Positions 22,314 through 38,626 of a stretch of 58,403 nt of DNA are shown piece after piece. The position numbers and the translations under genes were made by a program. The notes below the pieces were generated by a model that was given only the letters and a program-made list of their open reading frames with translations, did no database searches and was not told where the DNA came from. The stretch's first letter is position 1. Every line of letters begins with the position of its first letter. The stretch is from an uncultured Clostridia bacterium (GTDB taxonomy: Bacteria > Bacillota > Clostridia > Lachnospirales > Lachnospiraceae), in contig CAMIZL010000013.1 of the NCBI GenBank assembly GCA_946403295.1, positions 1-58,403 of the forward strand. The letters are read 5' to 3'.

Positions 22314-22396
22314 AAAGACCCCTGTAAGAAGGGTTTTCCAAAAAGACCCTGTAAGAAGGGCTTTCTCAAAAGACCCCTGTAAGAAGGGTTTTCTCA
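22313..22396. repeat. 27-28 bp tandem repeat, 3 copies, each a mini-hairpin
   Basis: Units start at 22313, 22341 and 22368, the first at the stop codon of lacI. Each reads AAAAGACCC-tgtaagaa-GGGTTTT and can form a stem of about 7 bp followed by T's, like a row of weak terminators ahead of the strong one. Confidence 0.85.
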
Positions 22397-22399
22397 AAG

Positions 22400-22435
22400 G
22401 ATCTCCTGTGCGAAAAGCGCGGGAGGTCTTTTTTT
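22400..22435 (+). terminator. rho-independent terminator after lacI
   Basis: A 12-bp stem (22400-22411 with 22417-22428, GAAAA loop) followed by seven T's. It ends the epimerase-manA-GH5-lacI transcript. Confidence 0.9.
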
Positions 22436-22728: not shown

Positions 22729-23421
22729 ATGGCTCAACAAACTAAAAACACACCAAACGAAAAATCCGTCAGGTATTTCCTCTTCGCTCCCGATGGTCCG
22801 CTCGTCTCCTTTCTCACAAAAACAGGCGAACTGATACTCCTCAGCTTTATGTGGATCCTGACATGTTTGCCGGTCATAACGATAGGAGCCGCATCCGCCG
22901 CACTTTATCACACTGTTGTAAAAAGTGTGCGACACGGGATCGGATATCCGGTCCGCAGCTATTTTAACAGCTTCCGGATGTTCCTCGGAAAAGGAACCGC
23001 TCTTACGGTACCTCTTCTTATATGGGGCGCCCTGATGTTTCTTTTTAACCGGTATGTCGCACATGTGGAGATATCTCTTTCCACTTTCACAGCAAAGATC
23101 TTTGTGATCTTTGTGATCGTCACGCTGTCCGTATCCGTCTATCTCTTCCCGATCGTCTCGAGATTCAGGATATCGGCGGGACAGGCCGTAATGATGGCGT
23201 TTGTCATAAGCGGTAAACATTTCGTTGTTACTCTGCTGCACATTGCCGCGATCGGCGGATCGATATATCTGTCTCTCTTCATCCTGCCGATCCCGAGCCT
23301 TTTTGTTCTTCCGGCTATACTGTGCTTTTTGTCCAGTCTGCCGATGGAAAAGGTCCTTCGCGGTTATATGCCGGACAGTCCCGGCGAAAACGGCGAGGCC
23401 GCATGGTTATACGAGGGATAA
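22729..23421 (+). CDS. YesL family membrane protein (DUF624)
   Basis: A 230-residue protein with about five membrane segments (LILLSFMWILTCLPVITIGAA, LLIWGALMFLF, IFVIFVIVTLSVSVYLFPI, LHIAAIGGSIYLSLFILP). It matches YesL/DUF624, which occurs beside carbohydrate ABC importers in Firmicutes; its role is unknown. The early RYFLFAPDGPLVSFLTKTGELILLS and the SAALYHTVVKSV region are family-typical. It is the first gene of the second mannan transcript. Its last 24 codons plus stop are duplicated directly downstream at 97-99 percent identity. Confidence 0.88.
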   Translation: MAQQTKNTPNEKSVRYFLFAPDGPLVSFLTKTGELILLSFMWILTCLPVITIGAASAALYHTVVKSVRHGIGYPVRSYFNSFRMFLGKGTALTVPLLIWGALMFLFNRYVAHVEISLSTFTAKIFVIFVIVTLSVSVYLFPIVSRFRISAGQAVMMAFVISGKHFVVTLLHIAAIGGSIYLSLFILPIPSLFVLPAILCFLSSLPMEKVLRGYMPDSPGENGEAAWLYEG

Positions 23422-23494
23422 AAGGTCCTTCGCGGTTATATGCCGGACAGCCCCGGCGAAAACGGCGAGGCCGCATGGTTATACGAGGGATAAG
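23351..23494 (+). repeat. 72-bp tandem duplication of the yesL 3' end
   Basis: The final 24 codons of yesL, including the stop, are followed at once by a second copy (23423-23494) with a single base difference. The second copy is untranslated unless ribosomes continue, and it pushes the next gene's ribosome site 72 bp downstream. Confidence 0.95.
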
Positions 23495-23525
23495 GGGAGA
23501 AGGAAATCCGGAGGGGGAAGAAAAC

Positions 23526-26483
23526 ATGTCGCAAAAAGTACGAAAATCAATCATATACTGCGCGGTGTTGCTTGCCATCGTTCTGTTTTTTGTGCTCAGG
23601 GCCGTATTCTCCAAAGATACGGTGGTCCCGGGAACCGCTGACATGATGTACAGCACCGATTACGGAAGATACCTCTCGGAAGTTCCGGACAACACGCGTC
23701 CCGACGAAGTGATAAAGATCCCTGCCTCCGATTTTTCATCATATTCGGAAGGAGGAGCCGTCGCAGCCCCCGGGATCATAAAGGATTTTGAAGGCTATGA
23801 CGGCGACTGCGTGCTAACCGGAGAAAACGGAGAGATCACATATGCGTTTTCCGTAAAAGAAGCGGGTTTATATGAGCTTTCCCTTGATTATTATCCCGTC
23901 GCGGGCAAGAATTCCGAGATCCAGCGGTCGTTCTTACTGGACGGCGAACAGCCCTATAACGAACTCGGCATCGTGCAGTTCTCGCGTATCTGGACAACAG
24001 ACATAGCAAAGAAGGCCTTTGAAGGCGGAGCGACACATGTCACCTGGAGGAAAGACAACCAGGGCAACGACATGAAGCCCACTTCGATCGAGATCCCCGA
24101 ATGGATCACGTCATGCCTATATGACAACAACGGTTATATCACTTCTCCCTTAAGTTTTTATCTTACGGCAGGTGAACACACACTTACCATAAAGTCCCGC
24201 CGCGAGCCGATGCTCCTCGGAGGACTTACCTTCTCTAACAAGGCGCGGGAACTCTCCTATGCGGACCAAAAAGCCGCATGGGACGGTGAAGGCGCGAAGG
24301 ATACCACAGGCATAGTGATATCCGTAGAGGGCGAGGACGCGAGAAAAACATCCTCCCAGACGCTCTACCCGAAGCAGGATCAATCCTCTGCCGCCGTATC
24401 CGATCACAGTTCAAGATATCTCCTTAACAATACGATCGGCGGCACAAGCTGGGACAAAGCCGGGCAGTGGATCGAGTGGCAGTTTGACATACCTGAGGAC
24501 GGGTATTACGAGATCTCGCTCTTCGACAAGCAGAATTTCATGCGCGGCATCTACGTCTCCAGAAAGCTCACCATCGACGGCGAGGTCCCTTTCAGGGAGA
24601 TGGAGAATTACGGCTTCTACTATGATTCCGACTGGCGTCTCGAGACGCTCACGGACAAAGATAAGAATCCTTATAAATTCTATATGACCAAAGGCAGCCA
24701 TACCCTCAGGATGGAAGTCGTGCTCGGTGATTTCTCCGAAGTGATCGCGCAGGTGCAGGACTGTGTCGGCAAATTAAATGCCATCTACCGAAAGGTGATC
24801 AGGATCATCGGCGTGTCTCCGGACACATACCGCGACTACCAGATCGAGGCGGCCCTTCCCAATATAGAAAACGAGATCACCGAAGTAAGAGACGAATTGA
24901 ACGACGCGATATATTCGCTTCGAAGCGCCGTGGGAACGACCTCCGACAAGGAGTCCGTGCTGATCACGATGCGCGACCAGCTCGATTATCTCATTAATGA
25001 CATAGAGCATTTTGTCCGTGTCATCAGCACATATAAAGTCAATGTCCGCGCATGCGGTACCTGGATCACCCAGGTCATCAGCCAGCCGCTCCAGATCGAC
25101 AGGATATTCATCACCTCGGATTCGTCGTCCCTCAGTATCGACGGCGACAATGTATTCAGCGATGTCCGAAACGAGACGGCCCGACTTTTCAATTCCTTCG
25201 TGATCGACTACAACTCACTCGGCTCAACTGGCGACACAGACAAAGAGAACAAGACCATCACACTTTGGATCGGTACCGGCCGCGATCAGGCAAACGTCAT
25301 CCGCTCCCTGATAGACGAGTCATTCACCGGCGTTTATGACATAAACGTTAATGTCCAGCTCGTCGACATGAACACTCTCCTCAGGGCAGAGCTCGCGGGG
25401 GAAGGCCCGGACGTTGCGATCCAGGTGGCGAACACAAACGGCATCGCGGGCGCGGTCCTTAATACAGGAAACGATACGCCGGTCAATTACGGACTCAGAA
25501 ACGCGGTCCTCGACCTTAACCGATTCAGCGACGTAAAGGAAGTGACCGGCCGTTTCTACGACAGTGCTCTCACAGCGTTTTCCTTCGACGGTGCGCTGTA
25601 TGCGCTTCCCGAGACGCAGACCTTCCCTGTCATGTTCTACAGGAAAGACATCCTGGCGGAGCTCGGGCTCGAAATCCCCGAGACCTGGGACGACGTAAAG
25701 GTCATCATGTCCGTACTCGCAAAGAACCAGATGGAGTTCGGCATGCTGCCGAGCGAGCAGATATACGCGATGATGCTGTATCAGAACGGCGGAAAATACT
25801 ATAACGAGGGCGGCATCTCCTCTGCTCTTGATTCCGATATCGCGGTAAATACCTTTAAACAATATTGTGAATTCTACACCGATTACGGTCTCGATAAAAC
25901 GACCTCCGTCGAGGAACGTTTCCGTACCGGAGAGTGCCCGATCATCATCGCAGACTATACCGTGTACAACAATCTGGAGGTGTCGGCTCCGGATATCGCA
26001 GGACTTTGGGACTTCGCGATGGTTCCCGGAACAAAGAAGGCCGACAATACGGTGGATCATTCCGTGGGCTGCACGGGCCTCGCGTCGATGATCATGGCCG
26101 ATACAAAGGAGCCCGAAGCCTGCTGGCAGTTCCTTAAGTGGTGGACAAGCACCGATGTTCAGGCTCTGTATGACAAGGAAATGGAAAGCCTCATGGGCTC
26201 GGCAGCCCGTGTCGCAACGGCAAACAGGGAAGCTTTCGAGATGCTCCCCTGGCCCGTTGATACATATCATAACCTTGCGGAAGCATTTGAATGGGTAAAG
26301 GGGATCCCTCAGGTGCCCGGCGGATACTATTCGTGGCGAAACGTAAACAACGCGTTTTACACGGTCACCACGGAAACCGATACGGCGTCACCCCGCGAGG
26401 AATTGATGGACAAAGTGCTCTATATCAATGAAGAGATCCGGTATAAGCGAATCGAATTCGGCCTGCCGGTGGAAGAAGAATGA
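23526..26483 (+). CDS. membrane-anchored chimera: CBM-like domains plus ABC solute-binding domain
   Basis: A 985-residue protein. One N-terminal membrane segment (IIYCAVLLAIVLFFVLRAVFS) takes the place of the usual lipid anchor. Two beta-sandwich, carbohydrate-binding-like domains follow (about 60-260 and 285-400; the second opens with VISVEGEDA, as CBM6/35 domains do). Next is an alpha-helical coiled section (about 400-520), then a complete family 1 solute-binding domain (about 580-940: KTITLWIGTGRDQANVIRSLIDE, DVAIQVANTNG, YALPETQTFPVMFYRKDILAELGLEIPETWDDV). It is probably the receptor for the permease pair that follows. The ATG at 23526 has GGAGGGGG 8 nt upstream. The long domain train is unusual; binding proteins normally have about 430 residues. 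Confidence 0.85.
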   Translation: MSQKVRKSIIYCAVLLAIVLFFVLRAVFSKDTVVPGTADMMYSTDYGRYLSEVPDNTRPDEVIKIPASDFSSYSEGGAVAAPGIIKDFEGYDGDCVLTGENGEITYAFSVKEAGLYELSLDYYPVAGKNSEIQRSFLLDGEQPYNELGIVQFSRIWTTDIAKKAFEGGATHVTWRKDNQGNDMKPTSIEIPEWITSCLYDNNGYITSPLSFYLTAGEHTLTIKSRREPMLLGGLTFSNKARELSYADQKAAWDGEGAKDTTGIVISVEGEDARKTSSQTLYPKQDQSSAAVSDHSSRYLLNNTIGGTSWDKAGQWIEWQFDIPEDGYYEISLFDKQNFMRGIYVSRKLTIDGEVPFREMENYGFYYDSDWRLETLTDKDKNPYKFYMTKGSHTLRMEVVLGDFSEVIAQVQDCVGKLNAIYRKVIRIIGVSPDTYRDYQIEAALPNIENEITEVRDELNDAIYSLRSAVGTTSDKESVLITMRDQLDYLINDIEHFVRVISTYKVNVRACGTWITQVISQPLQIDRIFITSDSSSLSIDGDNVFSDVRNETARLFNSFVIDYNSLGSTGDTDKENKTITLWIGTGRDQANVIRSLIDESFTGVYDINVNVQLVDMNTLLRAELAGEGPDVAIQVANTNGIAGAVLNTGNDTPVNYGLRNAVLDLNRFSDVKEVTGRFYDSALTAFSFDGALYALPETQTFPVMFYRKDILAELGLEIPETWDDVKVIMSVLAKNQMEFGMLPSEQIYAMMLYQNGGKYYNEGGISSALDSDIAVNTFKQYCEFYTDYGLDKTTSVEERFRTGECPIIIADYTVYNNLEVSAPDIAGLWDFAMVPGTKKADNTVDHSVGCTGLASMIMADTKEPEACWQFLKWWTSTDVQALYDKEMESLMGSAARVATANREAFEMLPWPVDTYHNLAEAFEWVKGIPQVPGGYYSWRNVNNAFYTVTTETDTASPREELMDKVLYINEEIRYKRIEFGLPVEEE

Positions 26484-26506
26484 TCGGGGAAAGGAGGAAC
26501 CGGTAA

Positions 26507-27427
26507 ATGTCTGTTTATGATCTTGCAAGGAGACAAAGATCCCTCAAATACCGCATTAAGAAGAACAAGACCAGCTACATCATGATGAGCCCGTATTTTA
26601 TCCTGTTCTTCCTCTTTACGGTACTTCCCGTGGTCATGTCCATTGCTCTGAGCTTTACGTACTTCAACATGCTTGAAATGCCGAAATTCAACGGCTGGGC
26701 AAATTACACAAAGCTGTTCCTCAACGATGATATCTTCATTATCTCCCTGAAGAACACACTTATTTTCGCGGTTGTCACGGGACCGATCAGTTACCTGCTC
26801 TGTCTCCTGTTTGCATGGATCATCAATGAGTTCCGTCCGAAGGTGCGTACCTTCCTGACACTCATCTTCTATGCACCGTCCATCTGCGGCAACGCATATA
26901 TGGTCTGGTCTTTGATCCTTTCCTCCGACCGCTACGGATACCTTAACGGTCTCCTGATGAATTTAGGTTTTATCGACGAACAGAAGCTCTGGATGCAGGA
27001 CGCGAATCTCATCCTCCCGTGCCTCATAGTCGTACAGCTCTGGCTGTCCCTCGGCACCGGCTTCCTAAGCTTCATCGCAGGTCTGCAGACAGTCGACAAA
27101 TCGCTCTACGAAGCGGCTGCGATCGACGGCGTCAGGAACCGCTGGCAGGAACTGTGGTTCGTCACACTCCCCGCGATGAAGCCACAGCTCATGTTCGGCG
27201 CGGTAATGCAGATCACCCAGTCCTTCGCTGTGGCCGATATCTCCATCCAGCTCGCGGGTAATCCTTCCGTAAATTATGCCGGCGCAACGGTCGTTACCCA
27301 TCTTCTTGATTACGGTTCGACAAGATTCGATATGGGCTATGCATCCGCCATCGCTACCGTGCTCTTCCTTCTCATGGTCGGCACGAACAAACTGGTACAG
27401 AAACTTCTCCGAAGGGTAGGTGAATAA
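26507..27427 (+). CDS. sugar ABC transporter permease (MalF-like)
   Basis: A 306-residue inner-membrane permease with six spans and the cytoplasmic EAA loop EAAAIDGVRNRWQELWFVTLPAMKP, which docks the ATPase. It belongs to the LplB/MalF group of oligosaccharide importers. An AGGAGG-like site precedes the ATG, and it lies 23 nt after the chimera gene. It would form a heterodimer with the next permease. The ATPase must come from elsewhere in the genome (a shared MsmK-type protein is usual in Firmicutes). Confidence 0.93.
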   Translation: MSVYDLARRQRSLKYRIKKNKTSYIMMSPYFILFFLFTVLPVVMSIALSFTYFNMLEMPKFNGWANYTKLFLNDDIFIISLKNTLIFAVVTGPISYLLCLLFAWIINEFRPKVRTFLTLIFYAPSICGNAYMVWSLILSSDRYGYLNGLLMNLGFIDEQKLWMQDANLILPCLIVVQLWLSLGTGFLSFIAGLQTVDKSLYEAAAIDGVRNRWQELWFVTLPAMKPQLMFGAVMQITQSFAVADISIQLAGNPSVNYAGATVVTHLLDYGSTRFDMGYASAIATVLFLLMVGTNKLVQKLLRRVGE

Positions 27428-27429
27428 CC

Positions 27430-28311
27430 CTGGACAGAGTAACGAAACTTCAAAAGAAGCACTTTAAAACAAAAAAGATCAACCGTTCCGTTGCCGGTAA
27501 CGGGATTCTTTTCACCATCATGATCATATGCGGTATATTCATGTCCCTGCCGCTTGTCATGATCGTGAACAACTCCCTCAAGCCGCTCGACGAGATATTC
27601 CAGTATCCTCCGGCGATACTTGTAAAGAATCCGACACTGAACAACTTTACCGACCTGTTTAATGTCATGGGCGATTCGTGGGTACCTTTCTCAAGGTACA
27701 TCATGAACACGATCATCATCACGGGTCTCGGGACCTTCGGACATGTCATGGTAGCGTCCCTTGCCGCTTATTGTCTGGCCAAGCACAATTTCCCCGGCAA
27801 GAAGCTCCTCTTTAACATGGTAATCCTTTCCATGATGTTCTCGTGGACGGTAACCCAGATCCCGAACTACATGATCATCAGCTGGTTGCACATAAACAAT
27901 ACGTATCTGGCGCTTATACTGCCGGCCTGGCAGTACGGTATGGGACTTTACCTGATGAAGCAGTTTATGGAACAGCTTCCCATATCGCTCATGGAGTCGG
28001 CAAGACTCGACGGAGCAAGCGAATACCGGATATTTTGGTCGATCGTTATGCCGAACGTTAAGCCTGCATGGCTGACTCTCGCGATCTTCCAGTTTCAGCA
28101 GATGTGGGGCAACACAGGTTCCATGTTCCTGCGTGACGAGCAGTTAAAACCGCTTCAATTCGCGCTTCAGCAGATCGCTGCCGGCGGTACGGCACGAGCA
28201 GGCGCTTCCGCTGCGGTAACGTTTATCATCGCGGCAGTGCCGATACTCTTCTTCCTTGCCTGCCAAAGTAACGTTCTCGAAACCATGACGACCTCCGGCA
28301 TAAAGGAGTAA
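27430..28311 (+). CDS. sugar ABC transporter permease (MalG-like), non-ATG start
   Basis: About 293 residues; the partner of the preceding permease, with EAA loop ESARLDGASEYRIFWSIVMPNVKP. The first in-frame ATG (27520) falls inside the first membrane span (GILFTIMIICGIFMSLPLV). The upstream frame encodes the normal basic N-terminus LDRVTKLQKKHFKTKKINRS. The only plausible initiator there is CTG at 27430, with AGGTGA about 6 nt upstream, overlapping the end of the previous gene. CTG starts are rare, so a base error or mutation of ATG is possible. It is typical of the MalG/LplC group for oligosaccharide import. Confidence 0.85.
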   Translation: MDRVTKLQKKHFKTKKINRSVAGNGILFTIMIICGIFMSLPLVMIVNNSLKPLDEIFQYPPAILVKNPTLNNFTDLFNVMGDSWVPFSRYIMNTIIITGLGTFGHVMVASLAAYCLAKHNFPGKKLLFNMVILSMMFSWTVTQIPNYMIISWLHINNTYLALILPAWQYGMGLYLMKQFMEQLPISLMESARLDGASEYRIFWSIVMPNVKPAWLTLAIFQFQQMWGNTGSMFLRDEQLKPLQFALQQIAAGGTARAGASAAVTFIIAAVPILFFLACQSNVLETMTTSGIKE

Positions 28312-28317
28312 GAGCCT

Positions 28318-29796
28318 ATGAAAAAGACTGGATTAATAAGAATACTCGGCTTGCTTGCCCTGTCTCTCATAACGGCTTTCCCGGCAGTCACGGTACAGGC
28401 AGAGGAAGAAGTGCCTTACGACACCTATAACTACAACTACTGGGAGGATATCGTAAAGACTCCCGCCGCATATACACCCGAAGGAAGTGTCGGCGGTATC
28501 GACGTAGGTACGACAGCATTTAAGGAGCCGAAAGATTTCTGTATATCGGCGGAAGGTGAGATTTATGTCGCAGACACCGGCAACGACCGGATCGTGGTAC
28601 TGGACAGCCAAATGAAAAAGGTCAACCGGATCATCGATACCTTCACCGTAGACGGAGTTGAGGATCGTTTCAGTGCCCCTTACGGTGTGTGCGTTTCCGA
28701 GAACAATGAGCTCTTCGTTGCGGATTCGAACAATGCCCGTGTTGTCGTACTTACCCCCGGGGGTGAATATAAACGTGTTGTAAAGGAACCGAAATCCGAG
28801 ATCCTTGAGGACAATTTTGCATTCATCCCGCTCAAGGTAACCGTAGACTACGCGGACCGTATATATGTGATCTCAAAGGGCGCATTTGAAGGGATCCTCG
28901 TCTTTGAGGCAGACGGAACGTTTTCCGGATATTTCGGAACGATCGAAGTAAAGATCTCCGTTTGGGAAAAATTCTGGCGACGCTTCGCTTCAAAAGAAGA
29001 GCGCTCGAACACACAGCTCTACATCCCGACGGAATTTACCGGGATCGACGTCGATGCGGACGGCTTTATCTATGCGTCAAACATCGATTCCGAGGGCATT
29101 CAGGCCGTACGAAGACTGAATCCTCAGGGCAAGGACGTTATCCAAAAAGGTGAGAACGGCAATGTCGGAGGCGACATCCGGATCGGCATCTACGGAGACT
29201 ACAGCGGACCGTCCGAGATCGTGGATGTTGTATACCGCAGCAAGGGTATGTATTCCGCCCTCGACAGAAAGAGAGGCAGGATCTTCACCTACGACAAAGA
29301 GGGAAATCTTCTGTACATCTTCGGCGGCATCGGACTGCAGGACGGAACATTTCAGACTCCCGTCGCGATCGAGCAGAACGGTGAGGAGATCCTGGTCCTC
29401 GACGCAGGACGAAACGTGATCATGAAATTTCATGAGACAAATTACGGAAGCCTGATCAACGAAGCCGTCGGGCTCAGATACGACGGTGACGAAAAACAGG
29501 CGATCGATAAATGGCGGGAAGTACTCCGCCTGGACGAAAACAACGAACTTGCCAATAACGGCATCGGAAAAGCTTATCTTACCGCCGGCGACAACGAAAA
29601 TGCCATGCATTATTTCGAACTCGGCATGAACAAGGATTATTACTCCATTGCCTATAAGCGTTACCGGAACCGGATACTGGCGGACAACCTGGGCCGGATA
29701 CTTACGGGATTGATAGTTTTGATCACTGCCGGACTCACAGTTAGAAGGGTGAAAAACAGGAAGAGAGGAAAAGACAGAGAGGAGGGACTGCTGTAA
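28318..29796 (+). CDS. NHL-repeat and TPR membrane-anchored protein
   Basis: A 492-residue exported protein. A signal peptide (1-28, ending VTVQA) is followed by an NHL-type beta-propeller from about 55 to 385, with repeated strands such as KEPKDFCISAEGEIYVADTGNDRIVVLD, SAPYGVCVSENNELFVADSNNARVVVL and ILVLDAGRNVIMKFHET. A short TPR-like helical pair (AIDKWREVLRLDENNELANNGIGKAYLTAGDNENAMHYFELG, about 400-445) and one C-terminal membrane span with a basic tail complete it. The propeller would face outward. It lies 6 nt after the permease and directly before the Yip1 gene. It probably scaffolds protein or glycan contacts for the transporter; not experimentally known. Confidence 0.82.
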   Translation: MKKTGLIRILGLLALSLITAFPAVTVQAEEEVPYDTYNYNYWEDIVKTPAAYTPEGSVGGIDVGTTAFKEPKDFCISAEGEIYVADTGNDRIVVLDSQMKKVNRIIDTFTVDGVEDRFSAPYGVCVSENNELFVADSNNARVVVLTPGGEYKRVVKEPKSEILEDNFAFIPLKVTVDYADRIYVISKGAFEGILVFEADGTFSGYFGTIEVKISVWEKFWRRFASKEERSNTQLYIPTEFTGIDVDADGFIYASNIDSEGIQAVRRLNPQGKDVIQKGENGNVGGDIRIGIYGDYSGPSEIVDVVYRSKGMYSALDRKRGRIFTYDKEGNLLYIFGGIGLQDGTFQTPVAIEQNGEEILVLDAGRNVIMKFHETNYGSLINEAVGLRYDGDEKQAIDKWREVLRLDENNELANNGIGKAYLTAGDNENAMHYFELGMNKDYYSIAYKRYRNRILADNLGRILTGLIVLITAGLTVRRVKNRKRGKDREEGLL

Positions 29797-30429
29797 ATGA
29801 AGGAGCTTTTATCGAAAGATAAGTGGAAATATGCATTTCATACAGTCAGTCACCCCGCCGACGGATTCTACGAGATCCGGCACAGGGACAGGGGATCCGT
29901 TGCGGTGGCTCTCTGTCTTGTCATCCTGTTCTCCGTGACGTGGTCGATCAACCGTATATCCGCAGGTTTCATCGTAAACGATATCGATCCGCGCGATGTA
30001 AATTCCATCAGCGAATTGATCACGGTGCTCCTCTTCTTCTTTCTGATCTGTATCGGCAACTGGTCGATCACCTGTCTCATGGACGGCAAGGGAAGGCTAA
30101 AGGACATCCTGATCGCGGTCGGTTATTCTACCGTCCCCGCAACGGTATGCATCCTGATCGGTACGATTCTCAGCCGTTTTGTTTCCGAGGACGAGGCTGC
30201 GTTTTATTACATGATCTGCGGTATCGGAATAGCTTATACCCTGTTCATGATGCTCGTCGGGATCATGACGGTACACAACTTCACACTGGGGAAAACGCTC
30301 ATCACACTTTTCCTCACCGTGGTTGCTCTCCTGCTGATCGTATTCATCGTCCTCCTTATCGTAGATCTGGTCAATCAGGTATACAGTTTCCTGCACAGTA
30401 TCTATCAGGAACTGCTTTTCCGGGCATAA
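29797..30429 (+). CDS. Yip1 family membrane protein
   Basis: A 210-residue membrane protein with five spans, fitting the Yip1 domain family (PF04893): WKYAFHTVSHPADGFYEIRHRDRGSVAVAL at the N-terminus, GNWSITCLMDGKGRLKDILIAVGYSTVPATV in the middle. Its ATG follows the NHL-TPR stop without a gap, with GAGGGA 9 nt upstream, so translation is probably coupled. Bacterial Yip1 proteins have no established role. Co-occurrence with an NHL protein and DUF5696 inside a sugar ABC operon suggests a membrane complex. Confidence 0.85.
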   Translation: MKELLSKDKWKYAFHTVSHPADGFYEIRHRDRGSVAVALCLVILFSVTWSINRISAGFIVNDIDPRDVNSISELITVLLFFFLICIGNWSITCLMDGKGRLKDILIAVGYSTVPATVCILIGTILSRFVSEDEAAFYYMICGIGIAYTLFMMLVGIMTVHNFTLGKTLITLFLTVVALLLIVFIVLLIVDLVNQVYSFLHSIYQELLFRA

Positions 30430-30488
30430 AAAATCTTTGGCAAGGAAACGCAGTCGTTTTTCAAACAACTTCCACGAGGAGGCAGCGC

Positions 30489-33128
30489 ATGGCTAAAACA
30501 AAAGAACAGAAAAAAGCGCTGAAGGAAATGAACCCGAAAGCACAACGAACAAATAAACACAAATGGGTCCGTTACGTGCTCGCGGCCGCTCTTGCGGTCT
30601 GCGCCGCGTATCTTACCTATTACCTTATAAGATTCAGTTTTTATGACCGGTACAAGGATTACCTGACCGACTATACGGTCGCGGAAGGAACAGAGTTTAA
30701 GGCCGCTGCCGATCCCTCCGTTTCGGTAGACGGTTTCACTCTCGCAGCACAAAGCGACTTCCTAAAGCTCTACGTCCAAACCGACACCGGTAACATCGCG
30801 GTTTATGACAAGCGTAACGGCGAGACCGTATATTCGAATCCCCAAAAAGCGGATGAGGACGCGATCGCCAACACCACGAACAAGGCCTACTTAAAGAGTC
30901 AGCTGATCCTCGACTATTACAACACGCAGCGTATGGAAAACACCTTTGATTCCTATACGCAGGCGACGCAGCTCGGACAGATCGAGGCGCAATCGATCGA
31001 GAACGGAGTAAGGATCATATACACGTTCGGGGACACCACGGCATCAACGGGCATCGTCCCCATATACATTAACAAAGATGTTCTCGAGGATGTTCTTTCG
31101 AAGATGGACAGCGCGGCTGAAAAATTCTCACGGAAGAAATTCATTCCGAGCGACGAGGACGAAAACCTGATGGTCATGCTCGAAAACACCCAAAAAGGTG
31201 TGTCCCAGGTCCGCCGCCTGAACGAATATTTTACGGCAGCGGGATGGACGAAGGAGGATTACGAGCGCGAGATGTCCGCAGTGGATGTTGAAGGCGCCGT
31301 TCCGATCACCTTCAGGGTTCCGATCGATTATACAATAAACGACGACTATCTCGAGGCGACCGTCTATATGAAGGGCGTTGAGGAGAACGGCGGAGGAGCA
31401 ATCCACAACATTCAGATGCTGAACTTCTTCGGCGCGGCCGGTAAAGACGAGAGCGGTTATATCCTCGTGCCCAACGGTTCCGGATCGATCATCAACTTCA
31501 ACAACGGCAAGGGAACCGCCCGTTCGGGGAACGATTATTCCGAATACATATACGGCATAGACCCCATGGCCGCCGATTATACGGTTCGCGAGAAGACCAC
31601 GAGCGCGAAGCTCTCCGTCTTCGGGATATTCCGCGAGAACTCGGGGATCCTCGCCACTATCGAATCGGGCGCCTCTCTGGCGAACGTCTCGGCAAGCATA
31701 GCCGGCGATGTAAACGAATATAACAACGTATATACCACATTCACACTCAGAGGAAACGATACGCTCTCGATGTTCGGCACAACGGGAAGCGAAGCCAAGC
31801 TTCCCATCGTCGAGACAAATTACTACGACGTTCCCCTTACAGTGCGTTATACGCTCCTTACCGCAGAAAACAACGGTTATGCGGGCGCGGCGAACTACTA
31901 CAGGGAACGCCTCATCCGCGAGGGTCGTCTTGAGGGATCAAAAGCACAGACGGGTGACATTAAGCTTTATTACGATGTGATCGGCGGTATCGAGGAAACG
32001 AAATATTTCCTCGGAACACGCTACAGAGGGCTTTCTGCAATAACCACTTTCGAAGAGGCGGCGGATATCGCGAGGGACCTTAAGGACGCCGGCGTGACAA
32101 GCCAGGTGATGAACCTGCAGGGCTGGAGCGGCGGAGGATATTACCACGATACTCTCGGAAAGATCAAGGTTCCCGGAAAGCTCGGGGGCAAATCGGATCT
32201 CGAGGAACTTTCAAACGAGCTCCTCGGCATGGGCGGAACGCTTTACGTGGACTGCGCGTTCCAAAAGGTTTCCGAGGTGAGCAGCAGATACTCGGCATCG
32301 AACGAGACCTCACGTTATTACGGTACCGGATATATCGGGGAGTTCGGCGAGGTTCATCCCGCCACACTCAGGCAGACCGCAAGTCTCGGTTATGACGAGA
32401 ACATCTACTACCTCGTGTCTCCGAAGTTTCTGGTCCGTTACACGGAAAGCTTTGCGGAGGACATCGTGGATTATGACATATCGGGAATCTCTCTGAGGGA
32501 TCTCGGAAATGTCCTTCATTCCGATAAGCGTCGCACAAACGTTATCGACCGCGAGCAGGCGCTCAATATCGTAAAAGCGCAGCTTCAAAAGATGAAGGAC
32601 ACCGGAAAGAACGTGATGATCAACAGCGGCAATGATTATTCGTTCGCATATGCGGATGACATCATCAACGCACCGCTCATCGACAACGCATATCCCTGCA
32701 TCGACGGCGCGGTTCCCTTCTACGAGATGCTGATCCACGGATGCATCGATTACTGCGGCAACGTGATCAACCTCGGGAATACGACAGACACGAACGAGAT
32801 CGTCCTCTCCCTGATAGAAAAGGGCGCATCACCGCACTTTGTCTTCACAAAGGAAGCGGCGACCGAAATGAAGATGACGGGACTCAACAAATTTTACTCC
32901 ACTTCCTACGACGGATGGAAAGATACGGCTGTCAGGATCTGGAACGAAACAAACGAAGCGCTTTCCAAAGTGAGCGGCGCGCATATGACGGATCACATGC
33001 TGCTCGCAGACGGCGTCAGCGTAACGACCTACAGTAACGGAATAAAGATCTGCGTAAACCATACAGACGAAACGGTAAATAAAGACGGGATCACGATAGG
33101 ACCCAAGAGCTATGCGATCGGAGGGTGA
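30489..33128 (+). CDS. DUF5696 domain-containing membrane-anchored protein
   Basis: An 879-residue protein with one N-terminal membrane span (YVLAAALAVCAAYLTYYLI) after a lysine-rich cytoplasmic start, the rest outside. It matches the DUF5696 family found in Paenibacillus and Lachnospiraceae glycan ABC loci. Two beta-rich parts (about 60-200 and 260-440) are followed by a TIM-barrel-like section (about 480-800): EEAADIARDLKDAGVTSQVMNLQGWSGGGYYHD, GGTLYVDCAFQKVS, YDISGISLRDLGNVLHSDKRR, NVMINSGNDYSF. This resembles glycoside hydrolase-like barrels, so it may bind or act on a glycan; no catalytic pair is proven. The ATG at 30489 follows GAGGAGG; the frame upstream overlaps Yip1 and is not real. 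Confidence 0.82.
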   Translation: MAKTKEQKKALKEMNPKAQRTNKHKWVRYVLAAALAVCAAYLTYYLIRFSFYDRYKDYLTDYTVAEGTEFKAAADPSVSVDGFTLAAQSDFLKLYVQTDTGNIAVYDKRNGETVYSNPQKADEDAIANTTNKAYLKSQLILDYYNTQRMENTFDSYTQATQLGQIEAQSIENGVRIIYTFGDTTASTGIVPIYINKDVLEDVLSKMDSAAEKFSRKKFIPSDEDENLMVMLENTQKGVSQVRRLNEYFTAAGWTKEDYEREMSAVDVEGAVPITFRVPIDYTINDDYLEATVYMKGVEENGGGAIHNIQMLNFFGAAGKDESGYILVPNGSGSIINFNNGKGTARSGNDYSEYIYGIDPMAADYTVREKTTSAKLSVFGIFRENSGILATIESGASLANVSASIAGDVNEYNNVYTTFTLRGNDTLSMFGTTGSEAKLPIVETNYYDVPLTVRYTLLTAENNGYAGAANYYRERLIREGRLEGSKAQTGDIKLYYDVIGGIEETKYFLGTRYRGLSAITTFEEAADIARDLKDAGVTSQVMNLQGWSGGGYYHDTLGKIKVPGKLGGKSDLEELSNELLGMGGTLYVDCAFQKVSEVSSRYSASNETSRYYGTGYIGEFGEVHPATLRQTASLGYDENIYYLVSPKFLVRYTESFAEDIVDYDISGISLRDLGNVLHSDKRRTNVIDREQALNIVKAQLQKMKDTGKNVMINSGNDYSFAYADDIINAPLIDNAYPCIDGAVPFYEMLIHGCIDYCGNVINLGNTTDTNEIVLSLIEKGASPHFVFTKEAATEMKMTGLNKFYSTSYDGWKDTAVRIWNETNEALSKVSGAHMTDHMLLADGVSVTTYSNGIKICVNHTDETVNKDGITIGPKSYAIGG

Positions 33129-33129
33129 T

Positions 33130-34053
33130 ATGGGTAAAAAGAAGAAAAAAACTAAATTAACTCTTACCCGCAGGCGCTCCGCGAAAGGTTTCCTGTTCAT
33201 AGTCCCCTGGCTGATAGGATTCCTGTGGTTCTACCTGAGAAGTCTTTTCATGACCGTGCAGTTTTCCGTATCGGAGCTTACGGTTTCGCCGGGCGGAGGC
33301 TATACGCTCGATTTTGTGGGACTCGACAATTTCATATATGCGTTCAGGGCTCACGGCACCTTTAAGCAGGTCCTTACGACGTCCGTCGGGAACATGCTCA
33401 TCGACGTACCCCTTATCACTTTCTTCAGCCTCATGCTGGCGATACTCCTTAACAAGAAGTTTAAGGGCCGTACATTGATGCGTGCCATATTCTTCCTGCC
33501 GGTCATCTTAAATTCCGAAGCGATACTTGCGGCAATGAAGGTTGCGGCGAGCATGATGGTCGGAGGACTCTCCTCTGCCGGCGCGGAAGTTTCCGAGGCC
33601 GCGAGCACGGGAGTGAGCGTCGGGTACTATATTCAGATGTTTTCAAATCTCGGACTTCCGAACAGCCTCATCGAATATGTTGTCGGTGCGGTGGGAAGGA
33701 TCAGCAGCATCATAAACGCATCGGGCGTCCAGATCATCATATTCATCGCGGCGCTGCAATCCATCCCGGGTTCGATGTACGAGGTGGCTAAGATCGAAGG
33801 TGCCACGGCCTATGAGACATTCTGGAAAGTAACTTTCCCGATGGTCATGCCGCACATCATAACCGTTGTGGTCTATACGGTAGTCGACAGCTTCATCAAT
33901 TCGGACGTTGTAACACTGGCGTACAACACCGCTTTTTCAGAAAAAAATTACGGACTGAGTTCAACTTTCTCGCTGGTGTCCACACTGATCACCTGCGCGA
34001 TACTCGCGATCGTCGTCCGGTTCATACAAAAACGAACGTTCTACTATAACTGA
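33130..34053 (+). CDS. sugar ABC transporter permease (second system, MalF-like)
   Basis: A 307-residue permease with six spans after a very basic start (GKKKKKTKLTLTRRRSAKGF). The EAA loop reads YEVAKIEGATAYETFWKVTFPMVMP. It carries an extra Ala/Ser/Gly-rich periplasmic segment (SMMVGGLSSAGAEVSEAASTGVS, about 140-165) not typical of MalF proteins. The ATG at 33130 has GGAGGGTGAT just upstream and begins 1 nt after the DUF5696 stop, so translation is coupled. It pairs with the next permease and, by order, the binding protein at 37184. Confidence 0.92.
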   Translation: MGKKKKKTKLTLTRRRSAKGFLFIVPWLIGFLWFYLRSLFMTVQFSVSELTVSPGGGYTLDFVGLDNFIYAFRAHGTFKQVLTTSVGNMLIDVPLITFFSLMLAILLNKKFKGRTLMRAIFFLPVILNSEAILAAMKVAASMMVGGLSSAGAEVSEAASTGVSVGYYIQMFSNLGLPNSLIEYVVGAVGRISSIINASGVQIIIFIAALQSIPGSMYEVAKIEGATAYETFWKVTFPMVMPHIITVVVYTVVDSFINSDVVTLAYNTAFSEKNYGLSSTFSLVSTLITCAILAIVVRFIQKRTFYYN

Positions 34054-34077
34054 TCCGGGGAGGTGACACAAACAGAC

Positions 34078-35097
34078 ATGGATAACGCCGCAGAGAAAAA
34101 TAAAGCAGCAAACACGGACCTTGTCGCCGTAAACCCGAAAGGCCTCCGTTTCTTAAAGATCGACAAAAACACAAAGAGCAGGATCGCAGATGACCTCAAG
34201 AGCTTCATTCTCGGGCTCGGACGCTGGGTGATCCTTATCGGCGTGGCATACGTGATCTTAGGACCGGTGCTCGGCATCATCTCGAGATCCTTCTTCTCGG
34301 ATGCCGACAACTACAACACCATGGTCTACATGATCCCGCAGTCGCCCACGACAGACAGATACGAGATCGCGTTCGATACACTCAACTACTCTTCGACTGC
34401 TCTCAGCACGATCCTGTATTCGCTGACACTCATGGTGATCCAGGTACTTATGTGTTCGATGGTCGGCTACGGCTTCGCACGATATGATTTTCCGCTCAAG
34501 AAGGTACTCTTCGCCTGCGTTGTGGTCATGATCGTCATTCCCACGCACACCATCATGCTTCCGCTCTACATGACTTTTGCGAACTTTGATGTCTTCGGGA
34601 TCTTCGGGCTGATCCTCGGAAACAGTCCGAACCTGCTCGGAACGGTCTGGCCAATGTACATAATGACCTTCTTCGCCTGCGGACTCAGATCGGGTCTTTA
34701 CATCTACATTTTTACCCAGTTCTTCCGCGGGCTCCCCAAGGAGATCGAGGAAGCGGCCTATGTTGACGGATGCGGTGTCTGGTACACCTACTTCAGGATC
34801 ATGCTTCGCAACGCCATCCCGTCTGCCGTAACTGTAGCGATCTTCTCTCTCGTATGGCAGTACAACGACACTTTTTACGCGAAGCTCTTCAATATCAGCG
34901 ATTCGGTATTGCTCAGCAAGAGAGTTGCGACACTCGCAAGCACGGTCGGAAACGTATATAAGATCTACGACCCCAACATCCTTCAGCTCTACCTGGATGC
35001 GGGCATCGTTCTTGTAATGCTCCCGCTCGTCATTATCTACATAGTCCTTCAGAAGCAGTTCATAGAAGGCGTGGAACGGTCGGGTATCGTCGGATAA
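34078..35097 (+). CDS. sugar ABC transporter permease (second system, MalG-like)
   Basis: A 339-residue permease, longer than usual (about 280) because of a soluble N-terminal extension of about 50 residues before the first span. EAA loop: EIEEAAYVDGCGVWYTYFRIMLRNAIP. The start was set at the ATG at 34078, about 11 nt after GGAGGTGA; a GTG at 34063 lies inside that ribosome site and is unlikely. It ends the permease block; an AT-rich hairpin follows. The substrate is presumed to be a manno-oligosaccharide, from the operon. Confidence 0.9.
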   Translation: MDNAAEKNKAANTDLVAVNPKGLRFLKIDKNTKSRIADDLKSFILGLGRWVILIGVAYVILGPVLGIISRSFFSDADNYNTMVYMIPQSPTTDRYEIAFDTLNYSSTALSTILYSLTLMVIQVLMCSMVGYGFARYDFPLKKVLFACVVVMIVIPTHTIMLPLYMTFANFDVFGIFGLILGNSPNLLGTVWPMYIMTFFACGLRSGLYIYIFTQFFRGLPKEIEEAAYVDGCGVWYTYFRIMLRNAIPSAVTVAIFSLVWQYNDTFYAKLFNISDSVLLSKRVATLASTVGNVYKIYDPNILQLYLDAGIVLVMLPLVIIYIVLQKQFIEGVERSGIVG

Positions 35098-35102
35098 ACA
35101 TG

Positions 35103-35133
35103 ATAATAAAATTGTGAAAACAATTTTTATTAT
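35103..35133 (+). other. AT-rich hairpin after the permease block
   Basis: ATAATAAAATTGT-GAAA-ACAATTTTTATTAT, a 13-bp stem with one bulge and a stable GAAA tetraloop. There is no long T-run after it. It separates the permeases from the abundant lipoprotein genes and may end or protect the upstream mRNA. Confidence 0.55.
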
Positions 35134-35176
35134 ACAAACCAACAACCATTTTTTACAAAAAAGAGGAGGAAAAAAA

Positions 35177-37117
35177 GTGAAGAAAACAAAATTGGCAACC
35201 ATAGTTCTGGTAATTGCCATGATGGTATCTTCTCTCGCAGCTTGCGGAAGCGCGGACGATCAGACAAACGCAGATCCCGTAGGCACAGAAGCACCGTCAA
35301 CGGCAGAAGTTACGCCGGATGTTGACGAGGGAGACACCTCAGTGGCTCCGGCAGTCACAGAGGCACCGGCTCCGGTAAACACGGAAGTATCAACTCCGGC
35401 AGCCGCACCCAGTATCGATTTTGAAGACGGCAACTACGCGTTCGCGGCAGTCGATACCGGACGAGGGGGAGCAGACAATTCGGTTCTTGAATTAGTGGAT
35501 TTTAACGGCTCCAAGGCACTTAAGGCAACGAATGTTGACGGCAAGAACATGTTCGTGGCATTCAATCTCTCCGCTCTGCTCGGCGAGAAGACGGCAGACG
35601 TAAAAGAGATCCGTATCGATCTCGGAACCGAGAATGCAGATAAATTCGCTTCGTCAAGCGGACGTCTCTACTGCATGACCGGTGAAGACAACAAGGAAGT
35701 TAAGGCAAACGAGTGGTCCGTATACATTGAGACCTCAAATCCCAAGACCGCCAAATTTGATGTGAGCGGCGCAGGCTTTATCGGAAACGGCGAGAATTAC
35801 ATCGTTCTCTCAAAGGAAACCGACAACTCAAAGACAACACCTTCGAATCTTTTGATCGACAATATCGCTTTCCTTGATGCAAACGGTGCGACGATCGAAG
35901 CGGACACATCGGCTGAGTTCGGTAACCCCGCAGGTTTCGCAGCCGTAAATGACCGCAGCAACCTCTTTGCTCTTACAAAGGTTGTTGACTGGGAAGGATA
36001 TGCGGTATCGGCAGGCGCATGGGCTCAGGCAGGCGTACCTTTCACAGACAAGGTTCTTGAAGCACTTGTACCCGGCTCCGTGATCGAGATCGAATACACA
36101 TCAGATTCCGGCAATATGTGGATCGTCATGAACGAGTCCGCAGCAGGCTGGATGCGTGTCGGCGTAGGTGATGCCGACGGTTCGGGTCAGCAGTACGCAT
36201 ATGTGAACGGAAAGAAGAACATCGCACAGGTAACCTTCGAGCAGATCGCAGCTCAGTGCGGCGACGATGTCTCCACATGGGGCAGCCAGATCCAGTGCGA
36301 ATCTGACGGTGCTTGGTCAGTTACAAGCGTTAAGGTCGGACAGAAGGCTCCCGCATATGCGTTGACACATGCTGTTGATTTTGAAGGATATCAGGTTTCC
36401 GCAGGCGCATGGGCACAGGCAGGTATCCCCATGACAGATGCGGTCATCGCAGCTCTTGTACCCGGCTCAGTAGTAGAGATCAGCTACAAGTCCGATACAG
36501 GCAACATGTGGATCGTCATGAACGAGGCACAGGCAGGTTGGATGCGTGTCGGCGTAGGTGACGCGGACGGCTCCGGACAGGGTTATGCGGTATGCGACGG
36601 CAGCAAGGCATATGTAACATATGAAGATCTTGCCGCATATTGCGGAGAAGACGTATCTACATGGGGATCGACCATGCAGTGCGAGTCTGACGGCGAATGG
36701 GAAGTTTACGGAATCCGCGTTGGCAAGGGCGATTCGTTCACCGCTGTCAACAGCCATATCGATCTCGGCGCATCAGTATCAGCCGGTGCATGGGCTCAGG
36801 CAGGCGTTGACCTCACAGAGGATCAGATCGCCGCACTCGTTCCCGGTTCGGTGATCGATGCCGAATATACCTCCGAGACCGGTGAACTCTGGCTCGTATT
36901 CCCCGCTGCAGAGCAGGGCTGGACACGTGTCGGCGTAGGTGATTACGACGGTTCCGGACAGGGCTATTCGAAGTTCGACGGCAGACATTGCCAGGTAACA
37001 TTTGAAGACATAGCAGAGATCCTTGGTGATGATACATCCAAGTGGGGAACCATGATCCAGTTCGAGGCATCCTCGGCATGGTCCGTAACATCCGCATCGA
37101 TCGGTTTTGTTAAATAA
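35177..37117 (+). CDS. lipoprotein with CBM-like domain and three repeated aromatic-rich modules
   Basis: A 646-residue lipoprotein (signal ending SLAAC), starting at GTG with GAGGAGG 7 nt upstream. A Thr/Pro/Ala linker leads to a beta-sandwich-like domain (about 80-245), then three homologous modules of about 125 residues begin near 265, 395 and 521. Each contains VSAGAWAQAG(V/I), a LVPGSV-EI-Y strand, a W-(I/L)-V segment, GW-RVGVGD-DGSGQ and a final W-V-S/Y strand. The exposed tryptophans are what one expects of carbohydrate-binding modules; I do not recognise the family. No catalytic residues are evident. It sits between the permeases and the binding protein, so it is probably a cell-surface mannan binder that feeds the transporter. 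Confidence 0.8.
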   Translation: MKKTKLATIVLVIAMMVSSLAACGSADDQTNADPVGTEAPSTAEVTPDVDEGDTSVAPAVTEAPAPVNTEVSTPAAAPSIDFEDGNYAFAAVDTGRGGADNSVLELVDFNGSKALKATNVDGKNMFVAFNLSALLGEKTADVKEIRIDLGTENADKFASSSGRLYCMTGEDNKEVKANEWSVYIETSNPKTAKFDVSGAGFIGNGENYIVLSKETDNSKTTPSNLLIDNIAFLDANGATIEADTSAEFGNPAGFAAVNDRSNLFALTKVVDWEGYAVSAGAWAQAGVPFTDKVLEALVPGSVIEIEYTSDSGNMWIVMNESAAGWMRVGVGDADGSGQQYAYVNGKKNIAQVTFEQIAAQCGDDVSTWGSQIQCESDGAWSVTSVKVGQKAPAYALTHAVDFEGYQVSAGAWAQAGIPMTDAVIAALVPGSVVEISYKSDTGNMWIVMNEAQAGWMRVGVGDADGSGQGYAVCDGSKAYVTYEDLAAYCGEDVSTWGSTMQCESDGEWEVYGIRVGKGDSFTAVNSHIDLGASVSAGAWAQAGVDLTEDQIAALVPGSVIDAEYTSETGELWLVFPAAEQGWTRVGVGDYDGSGQGYSKFDGRHCQVTFEDIAEILGDDTSKWGTMIQFEASSAWSVTSASIGFVK

Positions 37118-37183: not shown

Positions 37184-38626
37184 ATGAAAATGTTAAAGAA
37201 GCTGACAGCTATGGCTCTTATCGTAGTCATGGTACTGAGTATGGCAGCCTGCGGTTCAACATCCGACGAAACACCCGATTCGACGGGATCAAACGGTGAA
37301 ACAACCGCATCCGAAGGCAGCACGGGCACCGCAGCCAAAAATAACGAACCCGTAAAAGAGCCTCGTCATGAGGGCAGCACACCCCGTACGATCAAGATCG
37401 GTACATGGTATGACATTTATTATGACAGCACACATACGGATATCCATGACGATCCCTACGTATCGGACGAGGAGCTTGCACAGAAGAATTTCGATGCGCT
37501 CAAGTACGTCGAAGAGAAATACAACGTACGTCTCGAGTATGTAAACCTTACATACGCCGGCGTTCAGGAGTCAATCAACACCTCCGTTCTTGCAGGTAAG
37601 CCCGACTGCGACATCTACCTGACGGAGCCTTCATTCGGTATTCCTGCCGTAGCAAACGGTTATGCCACAAACCTTGAGGATGTTCTTCCCGCAGATGCTG
37701 ATATTCTCAACGAGCAGAACTATTTGACCACCATCAACATCAACGGCCTCAACGGAACCTATTTCATGCTCCCTGTAGGCGGCGAGTCCGTTCCTACCGC
37801 ATCATATGTTCTTTCTTTCAACAAGAAGATGCTTGATGACGCAGGTCTTGAAAACCCCAACGCTCTCTATGAGAGAGGCGAGTGGACCTGGGACAAGTGG
37901 AGAGAATATCTGATGAAGCTGACCAAGGACACGGACGGCGACGGCGTTACCGATGTATACGGTTTCGGTTCCCGTTATGACTGGTTGTTCGAGTACCTCA
38001 ACATGTCAAACGGCACAAGCGTTGCATCCGGCAAGACAGAGAACCTCAGCAGTAAGGAAGTCGGCGAGACACTTGAGTTCATCTACAACATGTACAACGT
38101 TGACCACATCGCAAATCCCTGGAACGAGGACGACTGGGATTATAACATGAGCGCCTATGTTAACGGCGAAGTTGCCTGCTGGTTCAACGCAGCATGGATC
38201 GTAGACACAAACAAGGATTACGACAAGGGTCTTGACGAGATCTGGTGCCCGATGCCTATCGGTCCTTCCGGAAACAAGGATACAAACGCAAGAAAGAATT
38301 CGGCAAGCGGTGCCGCATACATCATCCCTACGGGTGTTGAGGATCCTTATCTTGTGTACTGCGTATTCCGTGATTATAAGGATTACTACGGCGATGACTT
38401 CGAGCTGAGAGATTATGTTAACGACTGGTGGCATGACAATGCGCTCACAGAGGACAACTACAACGTAATGTACTACTGCGGTGAGAAGACCGGCGTTGAC
38501 CTTTGGAATGCACTCGGAGTTGATTATCAGTTCCCTCTCCTGCTCAAGGGCGAGCAGACGGCAGCACAGTTCCAGGAGACAAACAAGCAGCTTGTTCAGA
38601 GCGCTCTCAACACTGTGTTCAAATAA
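37184..38626 (+). CDS. extracellular solute-binding lipoprotein (family 1)
   Basis: A 480-residue binding protein with lipobox SMAAC and a Thr/Ser/Gly linker, then the mature domain from about residue 68: RTIKIGTWYDIYYDSTH, FDALKYVEEKYNVRLEYVNLTYAGVQESINTSVLAGKPDCDIYLTEP. A calcium-loop-like DTDGDGVTDVYG is near 248, where many maltose-type binding proteins have it. Aromatic residues are plentiful, as in oligosaccharide receptors. It belongs to the second permease pair. AAAGGAGG lies 11 nt before the ATG. The codon use is highly biased, as expected of an abundant protein. It is the probable receptor for manno-oligosaccharides. Confidence 0.92.
   Translation: MKMLKKLTAMALIVVMVLSMAACGSTSDETPDSTGSNGETTASEGSTGTAAKNNEPVKEPRHEGSTPRTIKIGTWYDIYYDSTHTDIHDDPYVSDEELAQKNFDALKYVEEKYNVRLEYVNLTYAGVQESINTSVLAGKPDCDIYLTEPSFGIPAVANGYATNLEDVLPADADILNEQNYLTTININGLNGTYFMLPVGGESVPTASYVLSFNKKMLDDAGLENPNALYERGEWTWDKWREYLMKLTKDTDGDGVTDVYGFGSRYDWLFEYLNMSNGTSVASGKTENLSSKEVGETLEFIYNMYNVDHIANPWNEDDWDYNMSAYVNGEVACWFNAAWIVDTNKDYDKGLDEIWCPMPIGPSGNKDTNARKNSASGAAYIIPTGVEDPYLVYCVFRDYKDYYGDDFELRDYVNDWWHDNALTEDNYNVMYYCGEKTGVDLWNALGVDYQFPLLLKGEQTAAQFQETNKQLVQSALNTVFK

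Follow-up and report, generated by a model that had tools for sequence, protein, structure and literature searches.

A conserved NHL-TPR, Yip1 and DUF5696 gene unit beside CUT1-type permeases in Gram-positive bacteria: a candidate glycan-docking accessory of sugar importers

We analyzed a 58,403-nucleotide stretch of an uncultured Clostridia bacterium (assembly GCA_946403295.1, contig CAMIZL010000013.1), hereafter called the window. It carries a cassette of sugar-importer genes together with genes for an NHL propeller protein with TPR repeats (NHL-TPR), a Yip1 membrane protein and a DUF5696 protein. These three genes, followed by a pair of ATP-binding cassette (ABC) permease genes, stood in one fixed order in the loci that we examined. 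We consider it fairly likely that the cassette is a dual CUT1-type oligosaccharide importer with an obligate accessory unit that is extracytoplasmic, anchored in the membrane and docks glycans. A preliminary description of the region had named a YesL protein, a 985-residue receptor with a solute-binding domain, and the NHL-TPR, Yip1 and DUF5696 proteins, and Pfam confirmed all five.

Gene order of the core unit

The cassette lies on contig 13 of a genome of 65 contigs and 2.39 Mb, with all of its genes on the + strand. The NHL-TPR gene (28318..29796; Pfam NHL 1.8e-14, TPR_2 1.6e-4) encodes two hydrophobic stretches by hydropathy, a signal-like N-terminal helix at residues 6–24 and a C-terminal transmembrane helix at residues 457–475, and the protein is predicted to face the outside. 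The Yip1 gene (29797..30429) scored 64 bits against PF04893, for which the cut-off is 28.6, and its product has the five hydrophobic stretches expected of that family. As the preliminary description had noted, the Yip1 ATG abuts the NHL-TPR stop codon with no intervening base. DUF5696 (30489..33128; PF18952, 617 bits) comes next. Both genes of the downstream permease pair (33112..34053, with an alternative ATG start at 33130, and 34063..35097) encode BPD_transp_1 domains. The tight spacing described earlier also held from the first binding protein to downstream permease 1: the gaps are 23 bp between the binding protein and its permease 1, 6 bp between permease 2 and NHL-TPR, 0 bp between NHL-TPR and Yip1 and 59 bp between Yip1 and DUF5696, which overlaps downstream permease 1 by 17 bp.

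We searched a phylum draw of 398 genomes for DUF5696, scoring at most three candidates per genome, so that copy numbers are lower bounds, and leaving out matches below 30 bits. The family was found in 46 of the 398 genomes at E ≤ 0.001, 39 of them above the family cut-off. Near full-length matches (>480 bits) occurred at 57 places in 37 genomes, the window being one; the other 56 are the phylum-wide loci, for which up to about 9–10 kb per flank was annotated with profiles of the window proteins. A relatives set was made from the best 80 of 583 confirmed stretches and is therefore close to the window; it covers Lachnospiraceae, Oscillospiraceae, Clostridium sp. KNHs205, Anaeromicropila populeti, Thermoanaerobacterium and others.

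Yip1 was directly upstream of DUF5696 in 55 of the 56 phylum-wide loci, and the single miss begins at a contig end. In the loci with 2.6 kb or more upstream, NHL-TPR and Yip1 both directly preceded DUF5696 (52/52), and a permease pair followed it wherever at least 2.1 kb lay downstream (53/53). The relatives set behaved in the same way, with NHL and Yip1 in 67 of 67 loci and the permease pair in all 74 with at least 2.1 kb downstream. This order is shared by genomes from 20 genera, whose flanks differ. Gene order thus firmly supports one unit with NHL-TPR, Yip1, DUF5696 and the downstream permeases as its core. Judged by the neighborhood counts, the linkage exceeds chance. A Fisher test for co-occurrence gave p = 1e-47, a value that ignores relatedness. 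The co-occurrence proposed in the preliminary description was therefore borne out for NHL-TPR, Yip1, DUF5696 and the permease pair, which were together in every examined locus on a long enough contig. It did not extend to YesL, which the local profile found in none of the phylum-wide loci with long upstream sequence and in about half of the relatives (see below).

Several genomes carry the unit more than once. The window's own genome has a second cassette (L078, G000:C1:165000-184900) that runs from the giant binding protein to the second binding protein and in which the local profile finds no YesL. Genome G062, of 2.4 Mb, holds at least eight NHL-Yip1-DUF5696 cassettes (L042, L046, L057, L169-L172, L205); G082 has nine DUF5696 loci and G040 has eight, of which one is partly N. 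In three loci (L123, L125, L129) the NHL frames are 911–921 residues long, about 400 above the usual length, which may reflect either an additional domain or an extended frame.

Fusion of NHL-TPR and Yip1

NHL-TPR and Yip1 form a single open frame in 33 of the 52 phylum-wide loci, mostly of 700–750 residues, and in none of the relatives-set loci. Eleven fused frames were checked for hydrophobic stretches. In every one, a stretch follows the TPR part and the Yip1 part contains five (L056 had one extra), and ten also had the N-terminal stretch, the exception (L058) being cut.

Yip1 occurs in 184 of the 398 phylum-draw genomes. The association was also approached from the Yip1 side, with 18 of the 21 listed long frames (691–773 residues) that lie away from known DUF5696 genes, plus two frames of 480 residues. 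Seventeen of the long frames were NHL-Yip1 fusions, and DUF5696 was directly downstream in 17 of 17; all 17 sit in genomes already known as DUF5696 carriers. The remaining long frame (G183) matched Yip1 weakly and NHL not at all, and DUF5696 was absent there; neither of the 480-residue frames matched the local profiles.

A tree of 153 DUF5696 sequences, of which 97 are split and 56 fused, required five or more changes between the two states, where 200 shuffles averaged 45.6; support in the tree is uneven. These changes bear on one alternative, that the genes are merely co-transcribed in a common regulon and form no functional unit. A hairpin resembling a terminator, with 16 pairs, lies ahead of the cassette at 22396-22432, and none of the + strand hairpins within the cassette matches its length, as co-transcription would have it; the hairpin total of 21 is not clearly higher than the shuffled mean of 15.7. 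The fusion of NHL-TPR to Yip1 with its repeated fusion or fission, and an order kept in 20 genera despite differing flanks, argue the other way, and we regard mere co-transcription as very improbable. Directly ahead of the hairpin are three imperfect direct repeats of about 28 bp each (22313-22397).

Fold and active site of DUF5696

The DUF5696 model had a predicted local distance difference test score (pLDDT) of 88.8, and a fold search with this model returned the GH129/GH101 glycoside hydrolase (GH) fold across almost the whole ectodomain. The glycosidase-like barrel that had been proposed for this protein is thus present in the predicted model. The GH129 Pfam family itself (PF11308) did not appear among the window protein's matches up to E 1, a search in which HMMER filters drop most matches above 0.1. 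The nucleophile of the characterized enzymes, as given in PMC5698469, is an aspartate, D435 in NagBb and D486 in DagB. In DUF5696 its expected place is residues 642–645, at the end of barrel strand 4, where none of 160 sequences has an acidic residue (frames with long N runs were dropped) and the window has S644-P645. Compared with GH129 NagBb (5wzn/5wzq) and GH129-like DagB (5opq), DUF5696 lacks an acidic counterpart at the expected nucleophile place; it also differs in its membrane anchor, in its linkage to an importer operon and in not being listed by PF11308 up to E 1. Passing GH129 profile matches end before strand 4 or skip it, and a residue-level alignment of the nucleophile was not obtained from them. 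A fragment search against plasmids was also negative. No GH129 member was found in 299 phylum genomes, and since the controls were silent too this is not evidence of absence.

Because the GH129 fold is combined with 0/160 acidic residues at 642–645, DUF5696 is probably a glycan-binding pseudo-glycosidase. Alternatively, DUF5696 could be a surface glycosidase that is active, has a rearranged active site and trims chains before import; such an enzyme would share the fold over almost the whole ectodomain. It would also account for the conserved acids at 679, 739 and 777, those less conserved at 671 and 588, and residues W546, N715 and Y717; as DagB illustrates, GH129-like enzymes can alter catalytic residues other than the nucleophile (PMC5698469). 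The aspartate common to NagBb and DagB is the one without an acidic counterpart in 160 of 160 sequences, at a position taken from the model, and the neighboring glycosidases vary by locus while DUF5696 is constant. We consider an active enzyme unlikely.

The giant binding protein and the second importer module

The preliminary description had set five proteins, none of them a transporter, between two permease pairs. The map differs on both counts. The upstream permease pair (26507..27427 and 27430..28311, the latter with a probable CTG start judged from sequence; both BPD_transp_1) sits inside the group, between the 985-residue protein and NHL-TPR, and that protein is itself part of a transporter. 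This giant CUT1 binding protein (23526..26483) has a Pfam SBP_bac_1 match at residues 593–880. With the second, ordinary-sized binding protein (37184..38626; SBP_bac_1), the cassette thus has two family 1 binding proteins and two BPD_transp_1 permease pairs, as expected of CUT1 systems.

The structure model of the giant protein has an N-terminal transmembrane helix, two predicted beta-sandwiches at residues of about 60–240 and 262–400, a helical bundle and a binding domain at about 574–985. Comparison with PDB structures covers the binding domain; the N-terminal folds come from the model plus weak family matches. Of the 52 aligned relatives, 26 were scanned for such weak Pfam matches (E up to 1); Golvesin_C came up in 22 of these, GH115_C in 14 (best 3.7e-8) and CBM_35 in 10 (best 0.0034). 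The window protein alone gave a sub-threshold Golvesin_C match and nothing else. Weak PDB sequence matches were headed by a coiled-coil SMC chain (5e-5), with chains of the carbohydrate-binding module (CBM) family CBM6 at 0.08. The two CBM-like domains described ahead of the binding domain are supported by the modeled sandwiches, together with these weak matches.

A profile of the giant protein's N-terminal part matched 46 of the 398 genomes at E ≤ 1e-8. Thirty-eight matches were strong (E ≤ 1e-70), seven were weak and short (E 6e-18 or worse; dropped from the tally), and the one in G103 was cut by a contig end. Thirty-six of the 38 strong genomes are among the 37 DUF5696 genomes, and G103 is the 37th. 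The other two (G104, G154) have no DUF5696, and their contigs, shorter than 4.5 kb, end in the first permease. The giant protein was upstream in 29 and downstream in 6 of the 42 phylum-wide cassettes with long flanks, and upstream in all 49 such loci of the relatives set. Eighteen further places carry the giant protein; the NHL-Yip1-DUF5696 unit accompanies it in 8, and 5 are undecidable (2 end in NHL, 3 before it). The last 5 have the giant-protein module alone, which rules out an exclusive tie of the accessory genes to the giant binding protein.

Permease trees, restricted to proteins of 240–400 residues (which dropped two upstream and three downstream permease 1 and three upstream permease 2 sequences), separated the two pairs. 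Upstream and downstream permease 2 formed separate groups of 98 and 130 sequences with support of 1.0; permease 1 also split cleanly, into 95 and 130 sequences, with support of 0.03. The giant binding protein and its own permease pair are a separable second importer that usually accompanies the core.

Likely cargo

Around the cassette, Pfam identified a 2-epimerase, a phosphomannose isomerase, GH5, a LacI regulator, GH130, GH36 and two esterases, CE2-type included, the make-up of a beta-mannan utilization locus. Because of the local GH5, GH130, epimerase, GH36 and esterases, mannan is likely the substrate in the window. The phosphomannose isomerase and GH5, the latter with its own lipoprotein-like signal, lie in an unbroken frame of 823 codons (18796-21267), either a fusion or a gene pair without a stop.

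Flank proteins were clustered over 137 loci, and one member per named cluster was run against Pfam. GH26 clusters were found in 45 loci, LacI in 31, GH5 in 24 and GH130 in 22, and the share of the 56 phylum-wide loci was only 4, 6, 1 and 1, respectively. Five of the ten flank proteins scanned, from phylum-wide loci, were GH43, GH28, an alpha-galactosidase, GH31 and GH95, which rules out mannan as the general substrate. The flank enzymes vary across loci, which suggests that the cassette is a general type of importer, serving mannan in the window. The mannan cargo of the preliminary description is thus likely locally and does not carry over to the cassette elsewhere.

The regulator cluster also bears on another explanation, in which NHL-TPR, Yip1 and DUF5696 lie outside the uptake path and instead assist the assembly or quality control of the twin permeases or sense glycan. 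Yip1 is a membrane protein module, the three genes are constantly linked to one permease pair, and NHL and TPR repeats commonly serve as interaction folds. A glycosidase fold would be odd for an assembly factor, and 31 of the 137 loci have a member of the LacI-type regulator cluster, the window's being LacI by Pfam. We think this explanation quite unlikely.

YesL and other genes of the cassette

The YesL-type gene (22729..23421; five predicted transmembrane stretches by hydropathy) scored 40 bits against Pfam DUF624 (PF04854; cut-off 24.2). Against NCBIfam MusI_fam it reached 77.3 bits, under the cut-off of 160, which places it outside MusI proper. It was present in 31 of the 58 relatives-set loci with long upstream sequence, either before the giant protein or after the second binding protein, whereas the local profile found it in none of the 42 phylum-wide loci whose upstream sequence reached 8 kb. 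Pfam DUF624 occurs somewhere in 28 of the 37 cassette genomes and beside a mapped cassette only in the window and L207. These counts rule out YesL as a core member; it is an optional add-on. MusI, the nearest NCBIfam subfamily, is needed for maltose uptake in Corynebacterium glutamicum. YesL resembles it as a DUF624 membrane protein adjoining a CUT1 importer and differs in its sub-threshold score and in not being a core member of the cassette. The earlier statement that no function is established for YesL was therefore too strong. A 72-bp tandem duplication with one mismatch (23350-23493) repeats the last 24 yesL codons, including the stop, directly after the stop.

Behind the downstream permeases lie a three-CBM65 protein (35114..37117; CBM65_1 4e-61, three stretches) and the second binding protein. 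The former clusters in 54 of the 137 loci including the window, in none of the 56 phylum-wide loci, and mainly in the window's nearest relatives; a binding protein in this position is present in many loci. An OB_MalK domain, the only ATPase domain searched for, was found in one protein of the genome, on a different contig.

Discussion

The cassette is firm, and from it we infer a mechanism. The NHL-TPR propeller and DUF5696 would stand outside the membrane, held by single helices and Yip1, and would dock incoming glycan chains. The glycosidase-shaped groove of DUF5696 would hold chains rather than cut them. The binding proteins would then pass docked chains to the two permease pairs, which may share a MalK/MsmX-type ATPase encoded elsewhere. 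In the window the cargo would most likely be beta-mannan oligosaccharides.

Several observations weigh against this docking importer. The distance correlations among six components (0.88–0.95 over 94 loci, with the DUF5696 and NHL pair at the top) fit joint function, but they and the shared gene order would also result from descent as a single operon. The giant binding protein was unseen within the fetched flanks in 7 of 42 phylum-wide cassettes, and the 5 of 18 further giant-protein modules mentioned above stand without the accessory unit. In DUF5696, the nucleophile position rests on the strand order of the model and not on residue-level superposition, and 7 of the 160 sequences do have an acidic residue at the adjoining position, 646. 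Acidic residues are conserved in the barrel at D679 (150/159), 739 (149/159) and E777 (154/157), and occur at 671, just after strand 5, in 119 of 160 and at 588 in 131 of 160; some DUF5696 activity is therefore possible.

In Sus-type systems of Bacteroidota, surface glycan-binding proteins are coupled to a transporter. The cassette would work in a similar way, by surface glycan binding plus a transporter, in a Gram-positive and ABC-driven form; to our knowledge, Sus-type systems use different protein families. Closer in content are the beta-mannan loci with the CUT1 importers RiMnBP/RiMPP1/RiMPP2 of Roseburia intestinalis and FpMOBP of Faecalibacterium prausnitzii (PMC6385246, PMC8262883). Those loci share with the window a binding protein and permeases beside mannan phosphorylases, an epimerase and esterases, and the F. 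prausnitzii locus also shares GH36 and a LacI-type regulator (PMC6385246, PMC8262883). The Roseburia importer is described there with one binding protein and two permeases; the window has two binding proteins and two pairs. The words YesL and DUF are absent from the main texts of PMC6385246 and PMC8262883, as are NHL from the latter and Yip1 from the former. The F. prausnitzii locus also includes one hypothetical protein. Among 5.39 million open-access papers, subscription literature being outside the scope, we found no mention of DUF5696, none that links Yip1 and an NHL repeat to an ABC transporter permease, and none that links the Yip1 domain to an ABC transporter and a solute-binding protein; broader searches turned up no account of the cassette.

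We tentatively suggest, as a possibility short of our favored view, that this is a new Gram-positive glycan-uptake machine, in which two ABC permease pairs and an NHL-TPR-Yip1 scaffold are combined with a dead glycosidase as chain receptor, serving many plant polysaccharides and present in 8–9 copies in some genomes of 2.2–3.0 Mb. If so, many Gram-positive bacteria, including gut and rumen species, would carry on their sugar importers an accessory system that we found nowhere described. DUF5696, bacterial Yip1 and NHL-TPR proteins would gain a role in uptake, and the intake of long or branched plant glycans by ABC importers would become testable.

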